38,773 nt of DNA from Candidatus Brocadia sp. Lineage in GTDB: Bacteria; Planctomycetota; Brocadiia; Brocadiales; Brocadiaceae. This document shows positions 8,692 to 24,297 of the stretch, piece by piece (position 1 is the stretch's first letter; the number at the start of each line of letters is the position of its first letter). The stretch spans positions 1 through 38,773 of the forward strand of contig JAUQXU010000466.1 in NCBI GenBank assembly GCA_030837935.1, written 5' to 3'. The notes beneath the pieces are model-generated. The model was given only the letters and a program-made list of their open reading frames with translations. It did not search any database and was not told the DNA's origin. The position numbers and the translations under genes are program-made.

Positions 8692-10773
8692 TTGAGTAAA
8701 GTATCTGCAATGGAAGAACACATCATGCCTTTAGGTGAATTAACCCTCAGCAAACAGGAACGGCAGACACGGAAAGATTATTTAGATTTTACAGAGCGAG
8801 ACATAACCTTGCTCAAAGAATTAAACGGGCTTATTCACCAGCATGCCGATGAAATAATAAACAAGTTCTATGGTCATCTCCTCAGATTTAAGGAAACCCG
8901 ATCTTTTCTATCCGATGAGGAAACGATTAAAAAAGTCAGACGCACACAGAAGGAATATCTCCTGATGCTTACGGAGGGAATTTATGACGAGAAATACTTT
9001 GAGCATCGGTTAAATGTCGGTAAGACTCATGATCGCATAGACCTGCACCCCAATTGGTATATTGGGGCATATTGCTTATATCACCGACTCATCTTTCCAC
9101 TTATCATTACGACATACAAAGATCAACCTGACAAGGTAACTGACTATATCCTGGTCATTGATAAGATTATGAATCTTGATATGCAATTGGCCATTGATAC
9201 CTATATACACAGTTACCACGCAGCACTCGAGGAAAAAGTCCGTCTTACCGAAATACAAAACAAAAAGATAGAGGCCGCCAATAAGGCAAAGAGTGAATTT
9301 CTTGCCAATATGTCGCATGAATTGCGTACTCCATTAAATGCAATCATCGGTTTTTCCGAGGTACTTCGGGATAAGTTGTGCGGTGATTTAAACGATGACC
9401 AGATGGAGTTTGTTATGGACATTCACAGCAGCGGCCACCATCTCTTACAGATGATCAATGATATATTAGATCTCTCAAAGGTAGAATCGGGCAAGCTGGA
9501 ATTAAAATATGAACAATTTGAGATTGGCAAGGCTATAGAAGCCGTCTTAATAACCCTAAAAGGCCTCGCCGATAAGAAGTCGTTGGCAATTGAAACAATT
9601 CTCCACAACTTCGCTGACCGAATCTTCGCAGATCCTGTCAAGTTTAAACAAATTTTGTATAACCTGCTTTCCAATGCCATTAAATTTACCCCAGAAAACG
9701 GGAAGATCACTGTCCACTCAACAACCCTTGGGAAAGAAAAAGATTTCATTGAAATTAAAGTTACCGATACAGGCATTGGAATAGACCCCGAAGATTATCC
9801 AAAAATATTTGTGGAGTTTTCACAAGCCGACAGTTCTTACTCACGCAACTATGAGGGAACAGGACTAGGTCTGGCCCTCACAAAGAAATTAGTTGAGATG
9901 CATGGTGGCAAGATAGGGTTTGAGAGTAAGGTGAAAGCCGGCAGCACCTTTCAGTTTACATTGCCTGTAAATATGCCTGCGCATGCAGGTAAGGGAAAGG
10001 AAGGTATCAGTCTATCTGAAGGTCTGGCAAGTCAAAAGACTATTCTGGTAGTAGAAGACGACCCGAAAACCAGCGAATTGCTGTGCGTCTTTTTAAACAA
10101 ATCAGGATATCAAACAATCACTGCCTTCGATGGCGAAGAGGCGCTGCACAAGGCACGGACAATTAAGCCATTTGCCATTACTCTGGACGTAATGCTTCCC
10201 AAGAAAGATGGTTGGGAGGTCTTGAAAGAGCTTAAAATGGATAAGGAGGTTAAAGATATTCCTGTGCTTGTAATTTCTATTGTAGACAATAAGGATATTG
10301 GCTTTGGACTGGGTGCAACAGATTATCTTTGTAAACCGGTGAACAGGAACGATCTCCTGTCAAAACTTGCCGCATACGGACTTTTTCCCCCTGCCAATAA
10401 AGCACGTTCAAAAGTGCTGATTATTGACGATGATCCAAAATCGGTAGAACTGCTCAGCACATTCCTCGCCTCTGAAGGATATGAGATTTTAAAGGCATAC
10501 GGAGGAAAAGAAGGAATTGATAAAACATTTCTCTGGAAACCAGACTTGATCCTTTTAGACTTGATGATGCCAGAGGTAAGTGGATTTGATGTAGTGGACA
10601 AATTAAAAACAACGCCGGAGACGAATAGCATTCCCATTATCGTGGTTACATCGAAGGATTTGACACAGGCAGATAAAGAAAAGTTAAATCATGATGTTTC
10701 ACTGATAATAAAAAAGGGACAGTATTCCAGAGAACGTTTTCTGAATGACATCGCATCCTTAAACAAACACTAA
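8692..10773 (+). CDS. Protoglobin-coupled hybrid histidine kinase (globin sensor - HisKA - HATPase - REC - REC)
   Basis: Protoglobin-like N-terminus with NVGKTHDRIDLHPNWYIGAY; H-box SEFLANMSHELRTPLNAIIGFSE; N/G boxes; two receiver domains with VVEDD and IIDDD. TTG start. Confidence 0.88.
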   Translation: MSKVSAMEEHIMPLGELTLSKQERQTRKDYLDFTERDITLLKELNGLIHQHADEIINKFYGHLLRFKETRSFLSDEETIKKVRRTQKEYLLMLTEGIYDEKYFEHRLNVGKTHDRIDLHPNWYIGAYCLYHRLIFPLIITTYKDQPDKVTDYILVIDKIMNLDMQLAIDTYIHSYHAALEEKVRLTEIQNKKIEAANKAKSEFLANMSHELRTPLNAIIGFSEVLRDKLCGDLNDDQMEFVMDIHSSGHHLLQMINDILDLSKVESGKLELKYEQFEIGKAIEAVLITLKGLADKKSLAIETILHNFADRIFADPVKFKQILYNLLSNAIKFTPENGKITVHSTTLGKEKDFIEIKVTDTGIGIDPEDYPKIFVEFSQADSSYSRNYEGTGLGLALTKKLVEMHGGKIGFESKVKAGSTFQFTLPVNMPAHAGKGKEGISLSEGLASQKTILVVEDDPKTSELLCVFLNKSGYQTITAFDGEEALHKARTIKPFAITLDVMLPKKDGWEVLKELKMDKEVKDIPVLVISIVDNKDIGFGLGATDYLCKPVNRNDLLSKLAAYGLFPPANKARSKVLIIDDDPKSVELLSTFLASEGYEILKAYGGKEGIDKTFLWKPDLILLDLMMPEVSGFDVVDKLKTTPETNSIPIIVVTSKDLTQADKEKLNHDVSLIIKKGQYSRERFLNDIASLNKH

Positions 10774-10854
10774 AAATAATTTTAAGAATAAACCATCAAT
10801 GCCAATGCTCCAGAAAAGTTGTATTATGAAAAAAGGAGATGGATTCCCCTCTGG

Positions 10855-13440
10855 TTATAAAACTGACGGAGTTTCTGTAGCTTTTGGTTCGAAGTTACTC
10901 ATGTCAGGAGTATTTCTACTATTTATTGGCAGGCTAATATAAAAATCAGTTCCTGCCCCTTCTTTACTCTCTACGTAGATACATCCTTCATGGTCCTTCA
11001 TAATTCTAAATACAATAGCCAGGCCAAGACCAGTTCCTTTGTCTTTATCAGTAAAAAATGGTTCGAAGATATCGCCAAGCTTTTCAGCAGGAATTCCCAT
11101 ACCATTATCGGTGACCTTTATAACGAAATATTGCCTGTTTAATTCGCCTAAGAGAGGTGAAGCAAACGAAAAGAATACCCTGCCAGGGCGTTCTTTTGCC
11201 CTTCTTCTGAATTCGGAAATATTATCGATTAAGCTTGTGCTCACATGAATACACCCATTTCTCGGCAACGCATCAAGGCTGTTTTGCAGAATGTTTATAA
11301 GCACCTGCTTTACCTTATCTTCGTCGGCAGCAAGCTGGCAACTCATTTCTTCTAAAGCCGTAGTTATCTCAACACCCTTTTCGGCAGCATCATTCTTTAG
11401 CAAGTTTATGGTATCCATGATTGCACAATGAGGATCTATGTGCCGCATAACTGGTTTGGAAGGTTTTGCCAGATTCAGCATATCCTCAATGATTCTATTA
11501 ATCCTCCCTATTTCCTTTAAGGCAATCCCCCTGAAGTTACTGTGAAAATCCACATCATCTTTCTTATAGGGAAGAAGCTGAAAATATGTGTTTATGGCCA
11601 CCAGTGGATTTTTTATTTCATGGGCAATATTAGATGCAAGTACACCAAGATATGCGAGACGATCGGCATGTTGTTTCTCTGCCTGAAGCAATTTTAATTC
11701 TGTTAGATCTGTCAGAATCATTAATGTCCCGAGTTTCTCGCCGGCTTCAGTTTTGAGTTGAGTCAGGGTTACACCACAGGGAACTTTCTTATTGCCTCTT
11801 TCAATGAAAGTTTCAACGTCACGGTAATCTCTGTTACTCCTGAGCGTATATCGCAGTAATTTGTGAGTGTCCCTATCAAGGGCATTTAGTATTGTTCCGC
11901 TTGAACTTGCGTTATTCAGTCCAAGGATACTTTTGGCCTCATTATTAACAAGAGTAACTTCTTCATTAATATCTACAGCAATCACGCCACACTTTAAACT
12001 CTGGAGGATGTTGTCCCTATACGTCTTGGCCTCTTCCAAACCAGAATACAGGCGGGCATTATGAGTTGCCATAGCCAATTGACCAGAAAATGCAAGAAAC
12101 ATCTGGACGTCTTCTTGCGTAAAGACCTTTTTGTCAATTTTCTTACCCAAAAGAATTATGCCAAAGAGGTCATTTTCCTGAAGGACGGGAACACAACTGT
12201 CTATGTCCAAAGATGTCAATGTTTCTTCCAATACGTGATCAAGTTTGCTATGCGCAAAACGGTTCAGTTGTTCTTTAGAGAGAATCTTTTTATTTTGGCA
12301 GAGCCAGGTAACAACTGCGTCATCGCTGGGAAGAAATAACTTATCCTCGAATGAATCGGATGAGAATGGGAGATTTATAGCTGCTTTTAGACTGTAACGC
12401 TTTGTTTTTTCATCCTTTATCAGTATCCCTATCTTCTCAATACCAACGGAATCATATAAATATTGAATGGCAAAACGGAGAAGTCTATTCAAATCGTGGA
12501 TAGAAGAAAACATTACGGTAGAGTTACTGAGTATCTTTGGGTGGCTATACTTGGTACGGAATAGACTATTCTCAATAAAATGTTGAATCGATTCCCGAAT
12601 AGTCACAAAAGTTAAAATCATCACTATGATAGAAACTATATTCATAACGGTTTCTCTGTACTCTGATACAGGAAGTATGGTACTCATGATGAGTCCGGCC
12701 GTGAAATAGATTACGCTGAGGATAATGGATAGAATAGCGTAAACAGTGCTCTTCTTTATTACGACACTGATATCCATGAGATGGTACTTTACAATAGCGT
12801 AAGCCACTGCTACGGGGATGGGGACGGTAACCAGGGGCACAAAGCTTTCAACTTGCCATATACCCATTGCTGGTAAGAGAAAGTTTGTGATGGCCCCCAG
12901 GAGTACGGATACTGCTACCCCAAAGTATAAATATTGAATTTGTAGTCTTTTTACTCCATAGAAACGTATGCTTTTTTTATACAGGATATATAAAGAATAT
13001 CCCATACAGAGCATAAAGTAAGACCAAAATACCGGAAATAATGGACCATAATTCGCTTGTGGTAATTGGTTAACATATGATAAAGACTGAACAATATTGG
13101 ATGAAGAGCATGTCAATATGATACTTATGATAAAGAAAAATATACTTAAGTATCGATCGATAGACCTTTCCGCCCGATCAGGAAAGATGGAGGTAAAAAA
13201 GAAAAAGGCAGAAGGGATAAAAGCAGCTGCGCAAAAGACTAATCTCAGCCTGAAGACAGCCAACACCGGATCTGTGGTCTGAAGTATATAAAAAATAAAA
13301 AATGCCCAGACGCAAAATGTATTCGCAAGGATACAAAATCTTTTATTGATGCTGTCAGCTGGCTTCCTCAAGAGCACAAAGAACCCAAGCCCTGCATACA
13401 GCAAAGATATAAAAATACTCTCAATATGTGTTGGAAACAT
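10855..13440 (-). CDS. Sensor histidine kinase (7TM N-terminus, GAF, PAS, HisKA, HATPase)
   Basis: 861 aa; multi-TM N-terminus, GAF-like region, PAS ([24 protein letters not shown]), H-box [28 protein letters not shown]...[12 protein letters not shown]. Confidence 0.88.
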
Positions 13441-13443
13441 AAC

Positions 13444-14697
13444 CTAATTTACCTGAGGATATTTTTTTAACACGAGAACAGCATGTGTCCCACCAACGCT
13501 ATGGGTATTTATCAGGGCAGTATCCATACTACAATACCTGGCGCTGTGTGGAACATAGTCCAGATCGCAGAGTGGGTCAGGCACATCAAGATTAATTGTG
13601 GGAGGAATAATCCCGTTCTTTAGACCAAGGCTTGCAGCCACTACCTGGAAACCACCGGCAGCAGCGAAGGCATGGCCTGTCATGGACTTAATTGAACTTA
13701 TTGGAATGTTGTATGCATGATCACCAAAAAAAGTTTTAAAGGCATTTGTTTCTGCCAAGTCATAACTAGGAATAGCATTCCCGTGGGCACAAATATAGTC
13801 TATTTCCTCTCCTCTGATTTTACCGTTGATTAATGCCTGTTTCAGTGCAGTAAACAGCGTTTTTCCATTTAATTCAACATGAAAAACATCCTGAGCCTCA
13901 CATGCAGTGGCATACGATACAATCTCAGCATATATATTTGCATCTCTTTCCAAGGCATGGTTCAGATCCTCAACCACGATTGATACACCACCTTCGCTAG
14001 CCACTAAACCATCACGGTCATTGTCATACGGCCTCGATGCCTTCTCAGGCTCTTCGTTTCTTTTTGAGAGTATTCCCAGGGAGGAAAAGGTTGACATTGC
14101 AAAGGGAAATATCATAGAATCTGCGCAACCCACGACGGCCATGTCTACATCTCCCCCCTTTATCATGCTATATCCCCAGTTTACAATATCAAGCCCGCTT
14201 GAGCATCCCGAAGATAAGGTCGAATTTGGTCCGGTAATTTTTAATTCTGAACATATATAGCCGGTTGCTACATGCGGTGTAACCTCAGGAGCAGTATAAC
14301 GGCCAACCGCCTTCGGGCCAAACTCTAAGAATCTCCTGTGCTGATGCTCATAGATATCATTTTCAGCGCCTATCGTAGTTCCAAAACATACGCCACATCT
14401 GCTACTCTTCTCTCTGCTGATATCGATATCAGCGTCTTTTACAGCCATCTTAGCCGTAGCAACACCAAAATGGCAGAACCTTGCGCTTCTTTTGACCAAT
14501 CTTGGATCAAAATAATCGCCAGGATCAAAGCATTTCACCTCACCGGCAAACTGTGTGCTAAATGGAGAAGGATCGAATGACGTGATCCTTTTTATGCCCG
14601 ATCGCCCGTTGATTAAGGCATCCCAATAAGCATCCTTTCCATTACCGTTAGGAGCTAATATCCCCAGGCCCGTGATAACGACACGCCTTTTTACCAT
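13444..14697 (-). CDS. FabF/KAS-II-type beta-ketoacyl synthase (KS1)
   Basis: 417 aa; VVITGLGILAPNG, nucleophile SSGCSSGLD, His motifs ICAHGNAIPSYDLAET and KSMTGHAFAAAGG. Confidence 0.92.
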   Translation of the reverse strand: MVKRRVVITGLGILAPNGNGKDAYWDALINGRSGIKRITSFDPSPFSTQFAGEVKCFDPGDYFDPRLVKRSARFCHFGVATAKMAVKDADIDISREKSSRCGVCFGTTIGAENDIYEHQHRRFLEFGPKAVGRYTAPEVTPHVATGYICSELKITGPNSTLSSGCSSGLDIVNWGYSMIKGGDVDMAVVGCADSMIFPFAMSTFSSLGILSKRNEEPEKASRPYDNDRDGLVASEGGVSIVVEDLNHALERDANIYAEIVSYATACEAQDVFHVELNGKTLFTALKQALINGKIRGEEIDYICAHGNAIPSYDLAETNAFKTFFGDHAYNIPISSIKSMTGHAFAAAGGFQVVAASLGLKNGIIPPTINLDVPDPLCDLDYVPHSARYCSMDTALINTHSVGGTHAVLVLKKYPQVN

Positions 14698-14724: not shown

Positions 14725-16515
14725 TTATTTTTTAAAAACATTTTTTTCTGCCAGTCCGCGGCTGTAAGTGTTTATCTTTTGGTAAACCTCTCCCAGGAAG
14801 CTGTAGTCTGTTGTCAATAAAGACAAATCGCTTCTCATCTTGAATTCTTCCAAGCCCTTCTGTCCTATAAATCCTGCACTTCTTGCCGCCAGACAATGTT
14901 CGTCAGAAACATTTACGGTGTAACCCATTCCTCTGACCTTTTTCTCCATGATCCCGGACATCTTAAGCATATCCAGGAACTTAATGCCGTGTAAAAAAAT
15001 ATCCAGTTCAGGCCATGTGCTTGGATCTTTTGTCAGTTCATACTCGTAGCGCAGGAGCGTCTGGACATAATCGGCAGGCAGATCGAAACCGAATCGCTCC
15101 GGCTCTAATTGCCACGTTGTTGCAGGTAACGGTGCGCCAGGCGTTATAAGAACGGAGTCTGGTTTGTAATTCTCATTTTTTAATTTTCGAAGAAAACACA
15201 AATTCTCTTCCAAAATCTGCTCATGGGTTATACCACTGTCAGGAGGTATTGGACAAGGATAAATAAAACTAACGCCTACATCAAGATGTTTTTTTTGGTT
15301 GTAGGACGCCTGCTTTATGGCCTTCACGGTAAAATACATATCCTCTACAGAACCGCCTTTGTCCATAATCTTTGAAAGAATAACGTTATTCGCTGCTTCA
15401 ACACCCAGGAAAACAGCCCTAAGTCCTGACCGTATTATTTCCTCATAACACTCAACAAGCTCGGCCAACCGTTCCCGCGCCTTAGGTTCTGCCCGAATGA
15501 ACATTGAATACTCAATATTCAAGCCTTCTGCTAATAAGGCCTCTGCGATCCGTCTGCTCAGTGAAACAGGCGTTGTAGAACCTGCGAACCTAAAGAGTCC
15601 AATACCCGTTTTCTCAATAGTTTCCTTCACCTCCTGAATTGTTATACTAATATCTCGGGTCTGGTATTTGCCGGTAATATTTGGATGTGTACAAAAACTA
15701 CACTTCCCATAATAACAACCAGACGATTCGTTTATTACTGCTATATTTACCTTTCCATCCTCCTTTTCATATAAGGGGAAAGGTTTTAAGTTTAAGGGAA
15801 GTCTCTTAACAATTGTTTCGTTTATCTTGCCACTACCGTCCTTATATATCAGATTAAAAATCTTCCCCGTTTCGGCAAGCTTAACGACTCGTTGTACCAC
15901 CGCGGATTTTGTGGCTCCCCGGGCATACATTTCTCTTACGGTATTAATAATCTGCACCAGGGTTACTTCGCCTTCAACATCGACACAAAAATCGAAGGGG
16001 CTTTTTTCCAGTGCATGTGCCTTGAATTGATTAACCTGGGGTCCACCGGCAATTACTATGGTATGCGGGCTTATTTCGCGGACTCTTTGCGCAAGCTTCT
16101 CGGAATATACGAATCTATCACCAAGCCAAGTCTTGATTCCGAGTACTTTTGTCTGGTTTTCCCGCACCTTATGAGCAAGATCATCTATGTATTTCTCCAT
16201 TTTTTCTCTCATAACATCCGCAAGATTATCCTGGAGAAGGTGCCACTCCTTTCTTAAGGATGCAGTATCTTCATTATGCTGAACACCAAAGATCTGCGAC
16301 GAAAGTTCGGATAGTCTTGGCGTAAGATCGTTCTTTGTGAATGCAGTATAAAATTCGATCCCCGCCGGGTCTTCAATGGCAATGTTAAAACCCGCATCCT
16401 TACATGCCCTGGCAAGCACCCCAATACCATTTTCCCTAAAGCAATCACTAACGGAATAGGCCTTTCCCATGAATGAATTCCATACCATAAGGTCTACGCT
16501 GCGAGAATCATGCAT
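14725..16515 (-). CDS. B12-binding-type radical SAM protein
   Basis: 596 aa; Rossmann-like HTIVIAGGPQVNQF...FDFCVDVEGEVTLV followed by SSGCYYGKCSFCTHP, a Cys-rich radical SAM motif with CX4CX2C spacing. Confidence 0.85.
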   Translation of the reverse strand: MHDSRSVDLMVWNSFMGKAYSVSDCFRENGIGVLARACKDAGFNIAIEDPAGIEFYTAFTKNDLTPRLSELSSQIFGVQHNEDTASLRKEWHLLQDNLADVMREKMEKYIDDLAHKVRENQTKVLGIKTWLGDRFVYSEKLAQRVREISPHTIVIAGGPQVNQFKAHALEKSPFDFCVDVEGEVTLVQIINTVREMYARGATKSAVVQRVVKLAETGKIFNLIYKDGSGKINETIVKRLPLNLKPFPLYEKEDGKVNIAVINESSGCYYGKCSFCTHPNITGKYQTRDISITIQEVKETIEKTGIGLFRFAGSTTPVSLSRRIAEALLAEGLNIEYSMFIRAEPKARERLAELVECYEEIIRSGLRAVFLGVEAANNVILSKIMDKGGSVEDMYFTVKAIKQASYNQKKHLDVGVSFIYPCPIPPDSGITHEQILEENLCFLRKLKNENYKPDSVLITPGAPLPATTWQLEPERFGFDLPADYVQTLLRYEYELTKDPSTWPELDIFLHGIKFLDMLKMSGIMEKKVRGMGYTVNVSDEHCLAARSAGFIGQKGLEEFKMRSDLSLLTTDYSFLGEVYQKINTYSRGLAEKNVFKK

Positions 16516-16612: not shown

Positions 16613-16882
16613 CTATTTTATAGATTTCATGTTAATTTTTTCTTTCACAAGATTCGCCATATTTTTCAGTATCAAATTCTTACTTGCTTCTTCATTAGAA
16701 ATTTCTACATCAAACTCTGTTTCAATATTATATAATAAATTTATCATTTCCGCAGATTCAACACCGATATCATTCACAATATGTGAATCAGCGGTAATAT
16801 CTTCAACTTCTATCTTGAGTTCTTTCGCTAATATTTTTTTTAGTCCTTCTTCAATCGAATTTTCTGTCAAAGATTCCATCAT
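16613..16882 (-). CDS. Acyl carrier protein
   Basis: 89 aa; IEEGLKKILAKELKIEVEDITADSHIVNDIGVESAEMINLLYNIETEFDVEI with the probable phosphopantetheinyl Ser in GVES. Confidence 0.88.
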   Translation of the reverse strand: MMESLTENSIEEGLKKILAKELKIEVEDITADSHIVNDIGVESAEMINLLYNIETEFDVEISNEEASKNLILKNMANLVKEKINMKSIK

Positions 16883-16939: not shown

Positions 16940-18184
16940 TCAGATTTTGGACCTTTTTATCACAAGCGTTGAATTATTTCCTCCAAAGCCAAAGGAGTTT
17001 GAAAGGACAGCATTAAGTTCTTTCTTTCTCGCTCCATTTGTCACATAATCCAGGTCACATTCGGGATCTGCATGTTCTAGATTAATGGTCGGCGGGATTA
17101 CACCTTCTTGTAGCGCTAAAATACATGTTATCAGTTCAACCGCACCGGCCGCTCCCATTAAATGTCCCGTCATCGACTTGGTTGAACTTATTGGTATTTC
17201 GTATGCATTATTCTCAAAAACCGTTTTTATCGCCTTCGTTTCTCCACGATCATTTGCTATTGTGGATGTTCCATGTGCATTAATATAATCAATATTGCTG
17301 ATATCCAGCTGGGCATCCTCTATTGCCAAACTCATCGCCTTGCATATTTGCATCCTGTCCTGAGATGGCATGGTCATATGAAAGGCGTCACTGGTGGCTC
17401 CATAACCGGCGATTTCACCATAGATATGAGCCCCCCTTTCGCACGCCTTTTCTTCTCTTTCAAGAACCAAGATGCCGGCACCCTCCCCCATTACAAATCC
17501 ATCCCTATCTTTATCAAAAGGCCTACTAGCTTTTGTCGGCTGGTCATTTCTTTTCGACATTATTCTCAGTGAACAAAAGGCCGCGAGATTAAGCGGGAAA
17601 ATAGGCGCCTCAACTCCACCTGTCAAAACGATGTCCGCCTGACCTGATTTAATCATATCTCTCGCAACTCCTATGGCTTGATTTCCACTTGAACAAGCTG
17701 TCGCTACGACTAAATTTTGACCTGAAAAATGAAAATAATCTGAAATTACGTTTGCTATATTCCTGTTTTCAAGGGGAGGTTTGGTTCGTAGGGTATAGTT
17801 GTTATTTTCAATTGCCGTTTTTTCATCGTAGTATAATAACGTTTCAGCTCCTACACCAATTGATATCCCGACTTTATCCTTATTTAAGCTGCTTAATTTT
17901 AAATTTGCATCCCGCACTGCCATTTGCGCTGCTGCTAACCCCAATTGAGAATATCTGCACAAGGCGTTGGCTAAATCATCAGGCATGTATTTTTCAGGAT
18001 GAAAATTCTTTATTTCACCAGCAATCTTGGTAGGGTAACCTTCTACATTAAATCTTGAAATCATTGATATACCTGACTTCCCATGAATTGCAGATTCCCA
18101 GAACGCATCCACTCCGATTCCAATTGGTGTAATAATTCCTATTCCTGTTACAACGATTCTATCTTTCCCACCGTATCTGTCCAT
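16940..18184 (-). CDS. FabF/KAS-II-type beta-ketoacyl synthase (KS2), canonical active site
   Basis: 414 aa; ATACSSGNQAI, NAHGTSTIANDRGET, SSTKSMTGHLMGAAG, SNSFGFGGNNSTLV. Confidence 0.95.
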   Translation of the reverse strand: MDRYGGKDRIVVTGIGIITPIGIGVDAFWESAIHGKSGISMISRFNVEGYPTKIAGEIKNFHPEKYMPDDLANALCRYSQLGLAAAQMAVRDANLKLSSLNKDKVGISIGVGAETLLYYDEKTAIENNNYTLRTKPPLENRNIANVISDYFHFSGQNLVVATACSSGNQAIGVARDMIKSGQADIVLTGGVEAPIFPLNLAAFCSLRIMSKRNDQPTKASRPFDKDRDGFVMGEGAGILVLEREEKACERGAHIYGEIAGYGATSDAFHMTMPSQDRMQICKAMSLAIEDAQLDISNIDYINAHGTSTIANDRGETKAIKTVFENNAYEIPISSTKSMTGHLMGAAGAVELITCILALQEGVIPPTINLEHADPECDLDYVTNGARKKELNAVLSNSFGFGGNNSTLVIKRSKI

Positions 18185-18298: not shown

Positions 18299-19528
18299 TC
18301 AAAATCTCTTAAACAGCAGGGATACATTATTACCGGCGTAATCAAAGTTGTTTGATAGTATTATGTTTACAGGCTTGAAATCTGGCTTTTTTAGGATAAA
18401 TAATGAACTGCATTTTGGATCAATATTTTCAAGGTTATTTGTTTGCGGCAGAACCTTGTTTTTCAAAGACAGGAGTGAAAAGATTGCATCAATTGGACCA
18501 GATGCACCAACTGAGAATCCCAAACTACCCTTAGTTGAACTTACGGGAATCTTATAAGTATTTTCACTGAAGACCGACTTTATTACCTCTGATTCTTCTA
18601 TATCTTCTCTTATTCCAGATATACCACTTGCATTGATATAATCAACATCAGATGCATCAATGGCAGCAGACTCTAATGCCTGTTTTATACAAAACACTTT
18701 AGAATAAAAAGGAGAGTTTTTCTGATCTGCATCACTCTTATTACAATAAGAGGCCCCAAATCCAGCAAGTTCACCATAAATCTCAGCGCCCCTCTTCTCT
18801 GCACTACTCAGTGTCTCCAAAACAATAACACCAGCTCCCTCGCTCAAAACAAAGCCTTTTCTTTCAATATCAAATGGACAACTCGCTCGAGTTAAACCAG
18901 GGTCATTTGAGTAAAACAAACCTTTATGTCTCAATTCTTCAAAAACTCTCTGACAAAGTGGCGCTTCGGTCCCGCCAGCAACTACTGCATCGATATCATG
19001 CTGCTGGATTGTATTAAATGCATGAATTATGCTATAACTTCCTGAGCATGCACCGCATGAAAATCCTATATTAGGACCTTTAAGAGTAAATTCTATTGCA
19101 ATCTCACCAGATGGGGCATTCGTAAGATTCTTTTGCATTAAAAGAGGATGAACTCTTCTTGGGCCATCTGCATAAAGCATTTTAATTTGCTCTTCGATGA
19201 TGTTAAGCCCGCTAAAAGCGCTACCCATAAAAACCCCAATCTTTTCCTTGTCAAATTCGTTACCAATTTTTGCATCGGTTAATGCAATCTTTGTAGCAAC
19301 TAAGGCAAAACGGCTAAATTTATCTATTTTATCTTTTTTGGCTTCGGGAATACATGCCTCTAGTTCAACGTCAGACACCTTGCCAGCATATGTTTTTGTG
19401 TCCACACCTTCCGGTGCAATTTCCTTAATTCCTGATGTACCAGATAGGTATCTTTCCCAGTTTTCACGTATGCCAATGCCAAGTGGACTAACAACACCTA
19501 TACCGGTTACGACTACTCGTTTTTTCAT
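18299..19528 (-). CDS. FabF-like ketosynthase homologue lacking both catalytic His (KS3, chain-length-factor-like)
   Basis: 409 aa KAS fold; Cys kept (SCGACSGSYS), but NAHGTST is NASGISG and MTGHTLGAAG is SLGFSVGASG. Confidence 0.9.
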   Translation of the reverse strand: MKKRVVVTGIGVVSPLGIGIRENWERYLSGTSGIKEIAPEGVDTKTYAGKVSDVELEACIPEAKKDKIDKFSRFALVATKIALTDAKIGNEFDKEKIGVFMGSAFSGLNIIEEQIKMLYADGPRRVHPLLMQKNLTNAPSGEIAIEFTLKGPNIGFSCGACSGSYSIIHAFNTIQQHDIDAVVAGGTEAPLCQRVFEELRHKGLFYSNDPGLTRASCPFDIERKGFVLSEGAGVIVLETLSSAEKRGAEIYGELAGFGASYCNKSDADQKNSPFYSKVFCIKQALESAAIDASDVDYINASGISGIREDIEESEVIKSVFSENTYKIPVSSTKGSLGFSVGASGPIDAIFSLLSLKNKVLPQTNNLENIDPKCSSLFILKKPDFKPVNIILSNNFDYAGNNVSLLFKRF

Positions 19529-19731: not shown

Positions 19732-21111
19732 TTAGTTCCCAGAATCTGCAATTCCATACTTTTGCATCTTATAATTGATAATGCGGCGAGTGGTTCCAAG
19801 GAGCTTTGCTGCTTTCGATTTCACACCTCCGGATTCCTGAAGAGCCTGTTCGATGAGCTGCTTTTCTACGTGCGCCACTTCGTCTTCCATGGAGATTCGC
19901 CAGTTTTTATTTGATTTTGCCCTTTGAAGATTACAGGAAGAAATACCTGTGATCTCAATAGGAAGGTGTTCTGGTAGAAGAGTAGACTCGTTACCGTAGA
20001 GTGCAATAGTTCTTTCCATTATGTTTTTCAACTCTCTTACATTTCCTGGCCAATGATACTTTAATAATGCCTCCATAGCTTCTTTTGAAATAAATTCTGT
20101 TTTTGCATGGCACTCTTTTCGAAAGATGTTATAGAAGTGTTCTACTAATTGTGGAATATCCTCCGGCCTTTCACGAAGCGGCGGGAGATAAATGGGGACA
20201 ACATTAATACGATAATAAAGATCTTCACGGAATTGGCCGGCTTTGATCATTCCTTCCAGATCTTTATTTGTCGCAGCAATTATGCGTACATCAGTTTTTA
20301 TAACAGAATGACTTCCTAAACGAGAGAATTCCCTTTCCTGGAGAACACGTAATAGTTTTGCCTGCAAAGGAAGGTTTATCTCGCTGATTTCATCAAGAAA
20401 TATGGTACCACCTTCAGCTATCTCAAACTTACCTGATCTTCTTTCATATGCACCGGTAAACGATCCCTTCTCATGACCAAAGAGTTCTGTTTCCAGCAAG
20501 TCCCCTGCTAGATTTGGACAACTTACGACAACAAAGGGATTCTCGCGCCGATTACTATCAAAATGGATTGCACGTGCAACTAATTCCTTACCCGTTCCAC
20601 TCTCCCCCCGCAAAAGAACGGTTGAATCCACCCGAGAAACCCTGGAAATAATATCAATTATTTCCTCCATCATCCGACTATGTCCATGAATTAATTTGTC
20701 GATAGAATGGTATTTATATTCGGAACGAAGATATCGAACCTCCCTGGTTAAACTTTTAAACTGCAATGCCTTTTCAACCGTTATCTTAATCTCTTCAATT
20801 TCAAACGGCTTGACAATATAATCCAAAGCACCCAGCTTAACAGCCTCTACAATTGACTTAACGTCATTTACCGCAGTTAATACTATTATACCGATCTCTT
20901 GCCAAGAGGGTTGTAACCTTCTCAGCAATTCTAAGCCATCCATCTCATGCATTTTCAAATCAAGCAATATGAGATCCACACGCTCTTTATCTAATATCTT
21001 TAAGGCTTCCTTCCCACTATGAGTACCTAATACTCTATAGCTATCCTTTAAGACAAGACGGAGAGACTCTACTACACTGAATTCATCGTCTACCAATAAT
21101 ATAGTTTTCAT
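19732..21111 (-). CDS. NtrC-family sigma-54-dependent response regulator
   Basis: REC with LLDLKMHEMDG; AAA+ GESGTGKELVARAIH, HEKGSFTGAYERR, GGTIFLDEI; C-terminal Fis-type HTH (AAKLLGTTRRIINYKMQKYGI). Confidence 0.95.
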   Translation of the reverse strand: MKTILLVDDEFSVVESLRLVLKDSYRVLGTHSGKEALKILDKERVDLILLDLKMHEMDGLELLRRLQPSWQEIGIIVLTAVNDVKSIVEAVKLGALDYIVKPFEIEEIKITVEKALQFKSLTREVRYLRSEYKYHSIDKLIHGHSRMMEEIIDIISRVSRVDSTVLLRGESGTGKELVARAIHFDSNRRENPFVVVSCPNLAGDLLETELFGHEKGSFTGAYERRSGKFEIAEGGTIFLDEISEINLPLQAKLLRVLQEREFSRLGSHSVIKTDVRIIAATNKDLEGMIKAGQFREDLYYRINVVPIYLPPLRERPEDIPQLVEHFYNIFRKECHAKTEFISKEAMEALLKYHWPGNVRELKNIMERTIALYGNESTLLPEHLPIEITGISSCNLQRAKSNKNWRISMEDEVAHVEKQLIEQALQESGGVKSKAAKLLGTTRRIINYKMQKYGIADSGN

Positions 21112-21218
21112 AGCCAGTTATAAATAGATAGAGGATATAAAACACTGCTTCAAAGCTACACAATCAAACATCCGCATCTTTATTGCCACAGGGTCCCAAA
21201 GATTTACAAGTTTTTTTA

Positions 21219-22679
21219 TCAAGCCGATTGTGTGACAAGCTCGCCACATAACATATTAGAAATACCAGGTGAGAGTGTTTTGGTTTCTAAATTCTTTATT
21301 TTTGTCTCTAATTTCTCAACTTCGATTAAACTCGATTGTAATCTCTTAATTTCACTTATATCTGAAAATATTATAACCGCACCTAATTCGCCCTCACTAT
21401 CTAATAAAGAAGTACTTACCGTATATACAGAATGAGTAGCAGGATGCACAATCTCAATCATCTTATAAATTTTTTTATCTTTTAATGTCCTCAAGATAAT
21501 ATTAGCAAATACAGAACCAACATGCTTGATATCTTTTCCTAATATGTCGTTTGATGAAATATTTAACATCTTTGCAGCACTTTTATTTAAGGTATTAATC
21601 TTACAGTTGTTGTTTATGGCAATTACACCACAAGGGATGTTTTCTAATATATTCTCATTTCGAACTTTCCTAAGATTCACCTCACGGTAAAGAAAAGCAT
21701 TCTCTACTGCCATACCTATATATCCTGCCAGCATGGATAGCAATTCGATATCCTCATCAAAGAACGCCTTTCCGGTAATCTTGTTCCCTAAAGCTATTAC
21801 ACAGCTAAGATTCCCATGAGTAAAGACAGGAATGCATAGTTGCGATTGCAATAGATTTATTTCCCTCTGCATGTTTATCGCTTCACGCCTGGATAATTTG
21901 TTAGTTGCAACCTCCCTATCTATAACATCCTTACTTAATATCTGGTGATTTTTGGCCAGCCACAGCATAGTTCCATGCTCACGATTGAAGCAAATATTCT
22001 TAGCGGCGACCTCATCTAAACCGAAATAACGATATGGCCGACTTAGACCCTCTTTCTTGTATATCAGCATAAACACTACCTTTCCCACCCCGAATATTTC
22101 TTTCATTGCCTCTACAGTCATATCAGCAAGTTTTCCAAGATCGTAAACATGAGTTAATACTTTAGAAAACTTCTGAAATACCTCTTTATAGGTAAGATGT
22201 GTATCGCCGGTATTTGTTTGTTTATTGAAAGCCGATTCCGAAAAACCACTATCCTTACTATTCGGCTGTAAATTTTTAATTTGCGACTGGATAAAACACA
22301 GCTCCTTTTTAAGTTCTTGATTTTCCAGAGCCCTTTTTAAGGTGCGCTGTATCGATTCTTTCGTCAAAGGTTTCTCGAGAAGTTCGTACGCCCCAATTTT
22401 TAGAGCTTCTTCGGATAACGCCGGCTGAGACTCGGGAACTAACACAACAATCGTCGGATCAAATTTGATTTGTTTCAGACTCTCCAGGAGTACACTTGCC
22501 CCATCATTATTCAAGAGAATATCCAAAAATATTATATCAATGTCTTTGTGAATAAATATTTGCAGAGCTTCATCATGAGTCTTTGCATAATGAATTATAT
22601 AATCTCCGTTTAAAGATTTTCTAAAAAGGCCACGAATAGAATCATCGTCTGAGACCATCAAAAAAGTGTACATCACCAT
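21219..22679 (-). CDS. REC-GAF-PAS protein without recognisable kinase or DNA-binding output
   Basis: 486 aa; REC (SDDDS...IIFLDILLNNDG...LEKPL), GAF-like (LCIPVFTHGNLSCVIALGNKITGKAFFDEDIELLSMLAGYIGMAVENA), PAS (ENILENIPCGVIAINNNCKINTLNKSAAKML), ends in a short coiled coil. Confidence 0.8.
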   Translation of the reverse strand: MVMYTFLMVSDDDSIRGLFRKSLNGDYIIHYAKTHDEALQIFIHKDIDIIFLDILLNNDGASVLLESLKQIKFDPTIVVLVPESQPALSEEALKIGAYELLEKPLTKESIQRTLKRALENQELKKELCFIQSQIKNLQPNSKDSGFSESAFNKQTNTGDTHLTYKEVFQKFSKVLTHVYDLGKLADMTVEAMKEIFGVGKVVFMLIYKKEGLSRPYRYFGLDEVAAKNICFNREHGTMLWLAKNHQILSKDVIDREVATNKLSRREAINMQREINLLQSQLCIPVFTHGNLSCVIALGNKITGKAFFDEDIELLSMLAGYIGMAVENAFLYREVNLRKVRNENILENIPCGVIAINNNCKINTLNKSAAKMLNISSNDILGKDIKHVGSVFANIILRTLKDKKIYKMIEIVHPATHSVYTVSTSLLDSEGELGAVIIFSDISEIKRLQSSLIEVEKLETKIKNLETKTLSPGISNMLCGELVTQSA

Positions 22680-23271
22680 CCCCTTTCTAAAAATCGTCGA
22701 TTGATATAGAAAGCATCCGTTGCCGAACAGAATAGAGATTATATAGCGATTATAAACAAACTAAAAAGTAAAATGCTTTTTAAAATTTAAGGCGCTAAGA
22801 TAATAATTGTCATCTGAACAATAATGAGCATTGAGCAATTCTAGTACCAACCATGGACAATATTCTTCTATATGTCGAATGTTGGCTATTTTTAAATACT
22901 TAAGACTATTACAACAACTTGAAGAAGAAGTCTATTTAAAGTATCGAAAGGAAATGTGTACATTTTCTCGTCGTAGCATGTCGCAATTTTTTCCCTTTTC
23001 TGATATATGCCGACAAAATTGGCCACTGTTGTTAAAGGCAAAACGTTACCAAAAAACAACAACAAGCGAACAATTATGAACATATGTGGTTAAAATTGTA
23101 TGATAAATCAGGCGAATAAACAATATTGTACATTAATACCTTAGACACATTTTATTTACAATTAAGAAAAATAGTCGTTAGTCTTGAAATACAAATTAGT
23201 TACATTTTTCATTGAATTTTTCTTTCAGATTTGGTACAAGAAATGTCATGTTACTCTTTAAGGAATAAGGT

Positions 23272-24297
23272 ATGGAACAAAAATTTAAATCAGCAAACAT
23301 ACTTGTAATCGATGATGACTTAGGTGTAAGGGAATCATTAAAGATAATCCTGAGGGATAAATACTATGTTTCCACTACATCAAACATAGATGAAGCCCTT
23401 AATACCTTGGATAGTATGAGACCAGAGATGATATTCCTTGATATAAAAATGCCCAGGGCAAACGGTCTGGATTTCCTTAAGCATATGCGTTCTGCAAATT
23501 CTACTATTCCCATAATTATGATTACAGCGTATCCTTCCATAGAAACCACAATTGCAGCCTTACGAAATGGCGCATTTGATTATATCGTGAAACCTTTTCA
23601 TCCCTCTGAAATTCTTAATGTGGCTGAAAAGGCATTGCATCACAACATCGAATTATGGGAAAGAAACAAGCTGGTGGACAATCTGAGGTCAGCAGTTAAA
23701 CAAAATTTCTTTGCAACCACAGAAGCTCTTTTGCATGCCATAGATGCAAAAGATTCTTATACGGCAGGTCACTCTAAAAGGGTATCACAACTATTAGCCT
23801 TTGTTGCTAAAGAATTGGGCATGAACGAGTCAAAAATTGAAATCTTGCGATATGGCGCCTACCTTCACGATATAGGAAAGATTGGCGTAGTTGATGCTGT
23901 GCTGGCGAAACCAAGCTACCTCACTGAAGAAGAATTTCTTTTAATGAAACGACATTCCGAGATAGGTTATAAAATTATTGAACCAATAGACTTTTTGAAA
24001 GAATGCTTGCCAATAGTGCGTCATCACCATGAATGGTATAACGGCGCAGGGTATCCTGATCGTCTGCGGGGAGATGAAATTCCTTCTGAGGCTAGTATTC
24101 TCTCAATAGTAGATGCTTATGATGCCCTGACTACCGACAGGCATTACCACAAAAAATATTCTCACCAGAAGGCGTGCGAAATTATTAAACAGGGAATAAA
24201 TACTCAATTTGTCCCTACCTTTGCAGAAAAGGTTCTTGCCATTATTGATCACTACCGTGAAATACACCCGCGGGATGAACAGGGAAAAGAATTCTAA
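23272..24297 (+). CDS. RpfG-like response regulator: REC + HD-GYP (putative c-di-GMP phosphodiesterase)
   Basis: REC VIDDDLGVRESL...FLDIKMP; HD-GYP motifs YLHDIGKIGV and HHHEWYNGAGYPDRLRGDEIP. Confidence 0.95.
   Translation: MEQKFKSANILVIDDDLGVRESLKIILRDKYYVSTTSNIDEALNTLDSMRPEMIFLDIKMPRANGLDFLKHMRSANSTIPIIMITAYPSIETTIAALRNGAFDYIVKPFHPSEILNVAEKALHHNIELWERNKLVDNLRSAVKQNFFATTEALLHAIDAKDSYTAGHSKRVSQLLAFVAKELGMNESKIEILRYGAYLHDIGKIGVVDAVLAKPSYLTEEEFLLMKRHSEIGYKIIEPIDFLKECLPIVRHHHEWYNGAGYPDRLRGDEIPSEASILSIVDAYDALTTDRHYHKKYSHQKACEIIKQGINTQFVPTFAEKVLAIIDHYREIHPRDEQGKEF

Follow-up and report, generated by a model that had tools for sequence, protein, structure and literature searches.

Gene Content of the Locus

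The window, i.e., the whole stretch of Candidatus Brocadia sp. DNA that was analysed (38,773 nucleotides), carries ketosynthase (KS) genes on its minus strand within the order NtrC, KS3, KS2, ACP, B12-radical-SAM, KS1, sensor kinase:

19732..21111, minus strand: NtrC-type response regulator, bordering the KS3-KS2-ACP cassette upstream
18299..19528, minus strand: KS3, a FabF-fold protein (409 aa ORF) with the triad lost (Ala160, Ser301, Phe338) and Lys333 present
16940..18184, minus strand: KS2, an active FabF-type ketosynthase (C164, H304, K336, H341), proposed catalytic partner of KS3
16613..16882, minus strand: acyl carrier protein (ACP), third gene of the cassette
14725..16515, minus strand: B12-binding radical SAM protein, of the locus hosting the cassette
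13444..14697, minus strand: KS1, a further ketosynthase (the second of this locus), with Cys-His-His in the window copy and Cys-His-Gln in most relatives
10855..13440, minus strand: 7TM-GAF-PAS sensor histidine kinase, directly after KS1

The genome is of anammox type. Orthologues of the KS3 locus come from the same genus, some recorded as Candidatus Brocadia carolinensis or Candidatus Brocadia sp. AMX1. A Pfam search for hydrazine synthase, intended to check for anammox, gave no hit, but the controls gave none either, so that it carries no information. Signalling genes are unusually dense around this lipid locus (window positions 8692-13440 and 19732-24297), and include a hybrid kinase, a 7TM kinase, an NtrC regulator, a REC-GAF-PAS protein, and a REC-HD protein. 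A scan for sigma-54 promoters gave 19 matches, against 17.3 expected, and was uninformative.

Active-Site Residues of KS3

KS3 is a real ORF, and KS2 has the canonical triad (C164, H304, and H341, with K336), both as given in a preliminary description of this DNA made from the sequence. The relevant positions in KS3 are:

19214..19216, minus strand: codon of Phe105, at the FabF Ile108 acyl-pocket position
19049..19051, minus strand: codon of Ala160, in the catalytic Cys column (alignment, HMM, AF2 register)
19046..19048, minus strand: codon of Cys161, one residue past the catalytic position and previously taken for the nucleophile
18626..18628, minus strand: codon of Ser301, in the first catalytic His column (NASGISG)
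18530..18532, minus strand: codon of Lys333, the conserved KS lysine, kept
18515..18517, minus strand: codon of Phe338, in the second catalytic His column (GFSVGASG); Tyr in the orthologue from genome G019
18338..18346, minus strand: FDY in place of FGF, in the C-terminal loop NNFDYAGNN

Both histidine losses described earlier are genuine, with Ser301 and Phe338 at the catalytic His columns in alignment and HMM, as is the NFDYAGNN of the C-terminal loop. The nucleophile is another matter: the letters SCGACSGS are indeed there, but the Cys that was read as the nucleophile, Cys161, is off by one. When KS3 is aligned to KS1, KS2, and solved FabFs, Ala160 is the residue matched to the catalytic Cys, with no gap between Gly151 and Gly163, KS3 anchors common to KS1 and KS2; the canonical A-C-S-S-G is met by G-A-C-S-G in KS3, placing Ala160 in the Cys column, and in the column of Cys161 active enzymes carry Ser, Ala, or Thr. 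A profile HMM built from 57 active KSs gave the Ala160 register in six of seven KS3 orthologues, with posteriors of at least 0.95 for most, the sole ambiguous alignment being that of the most distant one (G019; GGCSAG). In AF2 models of moderate quality (mean pLDDT 71.5 and 77.9, and approximately 77-92 around the motif), KS3 keeps the FabF fold, and the strand-helix spacing is the same in the two proteins: the strand spans residues 153-156 in KS3 and 157-160 in KS2, and the helix starts at 159 and 163, respectively, the second helix residue being Cys164 in KS2 and Ala160 in KS3.

Alignment, HMM posterior, and AF2 register together reject a retained catalytic Cys: the whole Cys-His-His triad is gone from KS3, and the lysine alone is left. 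Because Ala160 fills the Cys column, KS3 is triad-less like a classical chain-length factor (CLF), rather than the opposite of one as had been proposed. The other role then proposed, a Cys-only acyltransferase or acyl shuttle, is unsupported, since Cys161 does not occupy the nucleophile position; the Cys-retained reading would also have led to mutation of the wrong residue.

Orthologues, Selection, and the Acyl Pocket

KS3 is present in seven of the 12 genomes of the Brocadia genus (one copy, in G004, is frame-broken) and in one further genus of the family (G019), with a truncated piece in G042; a draw of 393 genomes from the phylum yielded no KS3 beyond these copies. It had been suggested that orthologues might retain the histidines, with the window copy simply decaying, but both histidines are absent from every KS3 orthologue and the gene is under purifying selection: approximately 50% of positions are invariant across the seven orthologues, and dN/dS relative to the window copy is 0.12-0.15, as compared with 0.09-0.13 for KS2 and similar values for the radical SAM gene. 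In G004 the neighboring cinA, RR, and NtrC genes are split as well as KS3, so the frame break there is likely to be a sequencing error. Genome G042, which belongs to a different family of the order, has truncated pieces of KS2 and KS3 adjoining a transposase-like ORF (L058, 1-2757), and the KS3 piece has Thr in the Cys column and Leu instead of Phe338; these pieces are possibly the remnant of a transferred cassette.

The conservation of KS3 and KS2 is distributed differently, with invariant fractions of 0.70-0.80 at KS3 residues 101-160 vs. 0.25-0.45 at KS2 residues 101-160, the KS2 peaks being its catalytic motifs. Residues of the 105-140 region line both the acyl pocket and the dimer interface in KAS enzymes. 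At the position of Bacillus subtilis FabF Ile108, Phe is invariant in KS3, while KS2 has Ala, or Asp in three of eight copies; among the core anammox pairs described below, both active KSs have Ala at this position, and across dead partners it is Phe, Leu, or Tyr. The corresponding I108F mutant of B. subtilis FabF has been solved (4ls6), and in it the acyl pocket is obstructed and acyl binding hampered (PMC3996569).

The KS3-KS2-ACP Cassette

Wherever KS3 occurs, KS2 adjoins it. The KS1 and radical SAM genes are more widespread, occurring in about half of 60 relatives; at the 17 loci that have both but no KS3, KS2 and the ACP are missing as well, and KS3, KS2, and ACP therefore constitute one unit. 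In seven of these 17 cassette-less loci, NtrC lies 57-234 bp from the radical SAM gene. The make-up of the cassette is that of a minimal type II PKS (KS, inactive KS, ACP). Its absence from the closed Brocadia genomes G001 and G003 suggests that it is not required for core anammox lipids.

A side observation concerns KS1, whose second catalytic His is present in six of eight cassette-bearing loci (Gln in G002 and G019) and replaced by Gln in all 17 cassette-less loci. Gln likewise occupies this position in the outlying KS1 copy of G040, so the His may be a re-gain, but shared ancestry alone could explain the pattern.

Other Active/Dead Ketosynthase Pairs

This genome has two more tandem active/dead KS pairs, on contigs C61 (L005) and C291 (L004), and pairs of both types also occur in the five other anammox genomes checked. 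The dead KSs have Phe/Asn/Glu (C61) and Val/Asn/Glu (C291) in the triad columns and match Kuste2805 and Kuste3606, respectively, which were described in 2009 as odd FabFs with Val or Phe/Asn/Glu at the triad (Rattray, 2009; PMC2649909, Table 2). At the Ile108 position the active members of these two pairs have Ala and the dead members Leu or Tyr. In a fourth type of pair (L105-L107; genomes G021, G016, and G001), an active KS precedes a Kuste3348-like protein that resembles KSs but is very divergent, with Ser/Asp/Asn in G021.

The PDB entries 9s5h/9s5i, known here from chain names and sequence matches rather than as a described assembly, contain both halves of a Kuste3606-type pair: chain C is identical at 411 of 411 residues to the dead KS of G001, a genome of the same genus, and the C-terminal 138 residues of chain B are identical to the adjacent active KS.

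In a phylogenetic tree KS3 formed a separate clade (support 96/92), apart from the Kuste3606 and Kuste2805 types, and the dead state may thus have arisen more than once. Placement of KS3 within the Kuste3606/2805 clades was unsupported by the tree, though a joint clade was not rejected by the AU test (p 0.188); a sister relation between KS3 and KS2 was likewise not recovered in the tree, nor was it rejected by the AU test (p 0.309).

A Possible Role for KS3

The most probable explanation, and one in which we have considerable confidence, is that KS3 is a non-catalytic, CLF-like ketosynthase subunit acting as the partner of KS2. A CLF-like subunit had been one of the options raised at the outset, and it is now well supported by the adjacency of the genes, the KS-KS-ACP cassette, the complementary conservation of the two proteins, the blocked pocket position, and a solved active/dead KS pair from anammox bacteria. 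All of the chemistry would then take place on KS2 (Cys164, His304, Lys336, and His341), with KS3 taking the place of the second protomer of a FabF homodimer. In this arrangement the acyl tunnel would have KS3 as its facing wall, and the ACP would dock partly on KS3, which would therefore, we propose, decide which chain is accepted by KS2 and how long it becomes; a single tunnel across the putative KS2-KS3 heterodimer, shaped by KS3, would serve the KS2 active site while the growing chain is held by the neighboring ACP. The product would probably be passed on to KS1 and the B12-radical-SAM protein encoded alongside, yielding a putative lipid or polyketide dispensable for anammox growth. The KS2-KS3 complex, the tunnel, and the product are all inferred. 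Two points weigh against the proposal: by sequence KS3 is nearer to FabF than to known CLFs, and the invariance of Cys161 in full-length KS3 is left unexplained by a CLF role.

Other possibilities are considerably less probable. One is that KS3 forms a homodimer independent of KS2 and merely binds or sequesters acyl-ACP, in a regulatory or scaffolding capacity. The retained FabF fold would allow this, and the sensor kinases and response regulators flanking the locus could be taken as pointing in the same direction. The strict KS2-KS3-ACP linkage and the complementary conservation argue against it, as does the occurrence of active and dead anammox KSs together in a single PDB entry, and we regard it as improbable. 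Marginally less probable again is that Cys161 is a relocated nucleophile, with the loop shifted by one residue, making KS3 an acyltransferase or shuttle incapable of decarboxylative condensation. All seven full-length KS3 orthologues have Cys161, which is also found in the G004 and G042 copies, and in G019 the HMM prefers to place the Cys of GGCSAG on the catalytic Cys by way of a gap pair. Against this stand the gapless, high-posterior alignment in six of seven orthologues, the unchanged Gly151-Gly163 spacing, the position of Ala160 rather than Cys161 in models with shared strand-helix spacing, the loss of both histidines, and a Phe at the Ile108 position of KS3's own acyl pocket. That KS3 is a functionless, decaying duplicate might be argued from the loss of all its catalytic residues, the frame-broken G004 copy, and the truncated G042 pieces beside a transposase-like ORF, but this is ruled out, as nearly as such an idea can be, by the dN/dS values and by the intact, conserved orthologues, the split neighbors in G004 again pointing to sequencing error.

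A broader and more tentative suggestion can be made, which we put forward as less likely than not: that FabF has been made into active/dead heterodimers more than once in anammox bacteria, and that KS3-KS2-ACP is a transferable, minimal-PKS-like cassette feeding a B12-radical-SAM enzyme in the synthesis of a lipid that does not belong to the core ladderane set and is restricted to certain Brocadia species. The synthesis of ladderanes and related anammox lipids is an unsolved problem, and heterologous expression of candidate genes in E. coli has been unsuccessful (PMC4790861). If anammox condensing enzymes act as active/dead pairs, co-expression of both halves would be needed. As even close relatives differ in whether they carry the cassette, its product could be sought through a lipid comparison between Brocadia species that have it and those that lack it.

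Comparison with Known Systems

Bacterial FabFs (KAS II) share whole-length homology and fold with KS3, and the best-matching solved FabFs are 35-37% identical to it; unlike them, KS3 lacks the catalytic Cys and His, and its score against the NCBIfam FabF equivalog TIGR03150 is 354.3 bits, under the cut-off of 493.75 bits.

In type II PKSs the KS/CLF is an obligate heterodimer of active and inactive KS, with an ACP in the minimal PKS (PMC12664062). KS2 and KS3 resemble such systems (ActI ORF1/ORF2, Iga11-Iga12, ApeO-ApeC) in that a dedicated ACP accompanies one active and one inactive KS: the KS catalytic residues are lost from KS3, and an active KS and ACP are encoded adjacent to it. The differences are that KS3 is nearest to FabF and is full length, whereas ApeC is not, and that no KR or cyclase genes accompany it, the locus containing a third KS along with the B12-radical-SAM protein. 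The best KS3 matches are FabFs; ActI-ORF1 (1tqy_A) scored 161.7 bits, and ActI-ORF2 (1tqy_B) was not among the best 60 matches. KS3 would work like a CLF, yet by sequence falls outside the CLF family.

Within the anammox bacteria, the Kuste2805-type pair on C61 shares with KS2/KS3 the tandem active/dead arrangement and, in its dead member, a DYxGNN C-terminal loop. Its dead KS is approximately 33% identical to KS3 and has Phe/Asn/Glu at the triad; it counts among the ladderane candidate loci and occurs in every anammox genome checked, whereas KS3 is missing from several closed anammox genomes. The Kuste3606-type dead chain (Val/Asn/Glu vs. Ala/Ser/Phe in KS3) is approximately 31% identical to KS3 and is placed by the tree in a separate clade, and its core pair is present in all six anammox genomes checked, while KS3 is found in a minority; KS3 follows neither version of the Val-or-Phe/Asn/Glu pattern. 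The Kuste3606-type pair of 9s5h/9s5i is nonetheless like KS2/KS3 in being a tandem active KS and triad-less FabF paralogue from the same genus, in which the dead partner retains the lysine and the two differ as Ala and bulky residue at the Ile108 position. Dead anammox FabFs were thus already reported in 2009, and KS3 adds a further member.
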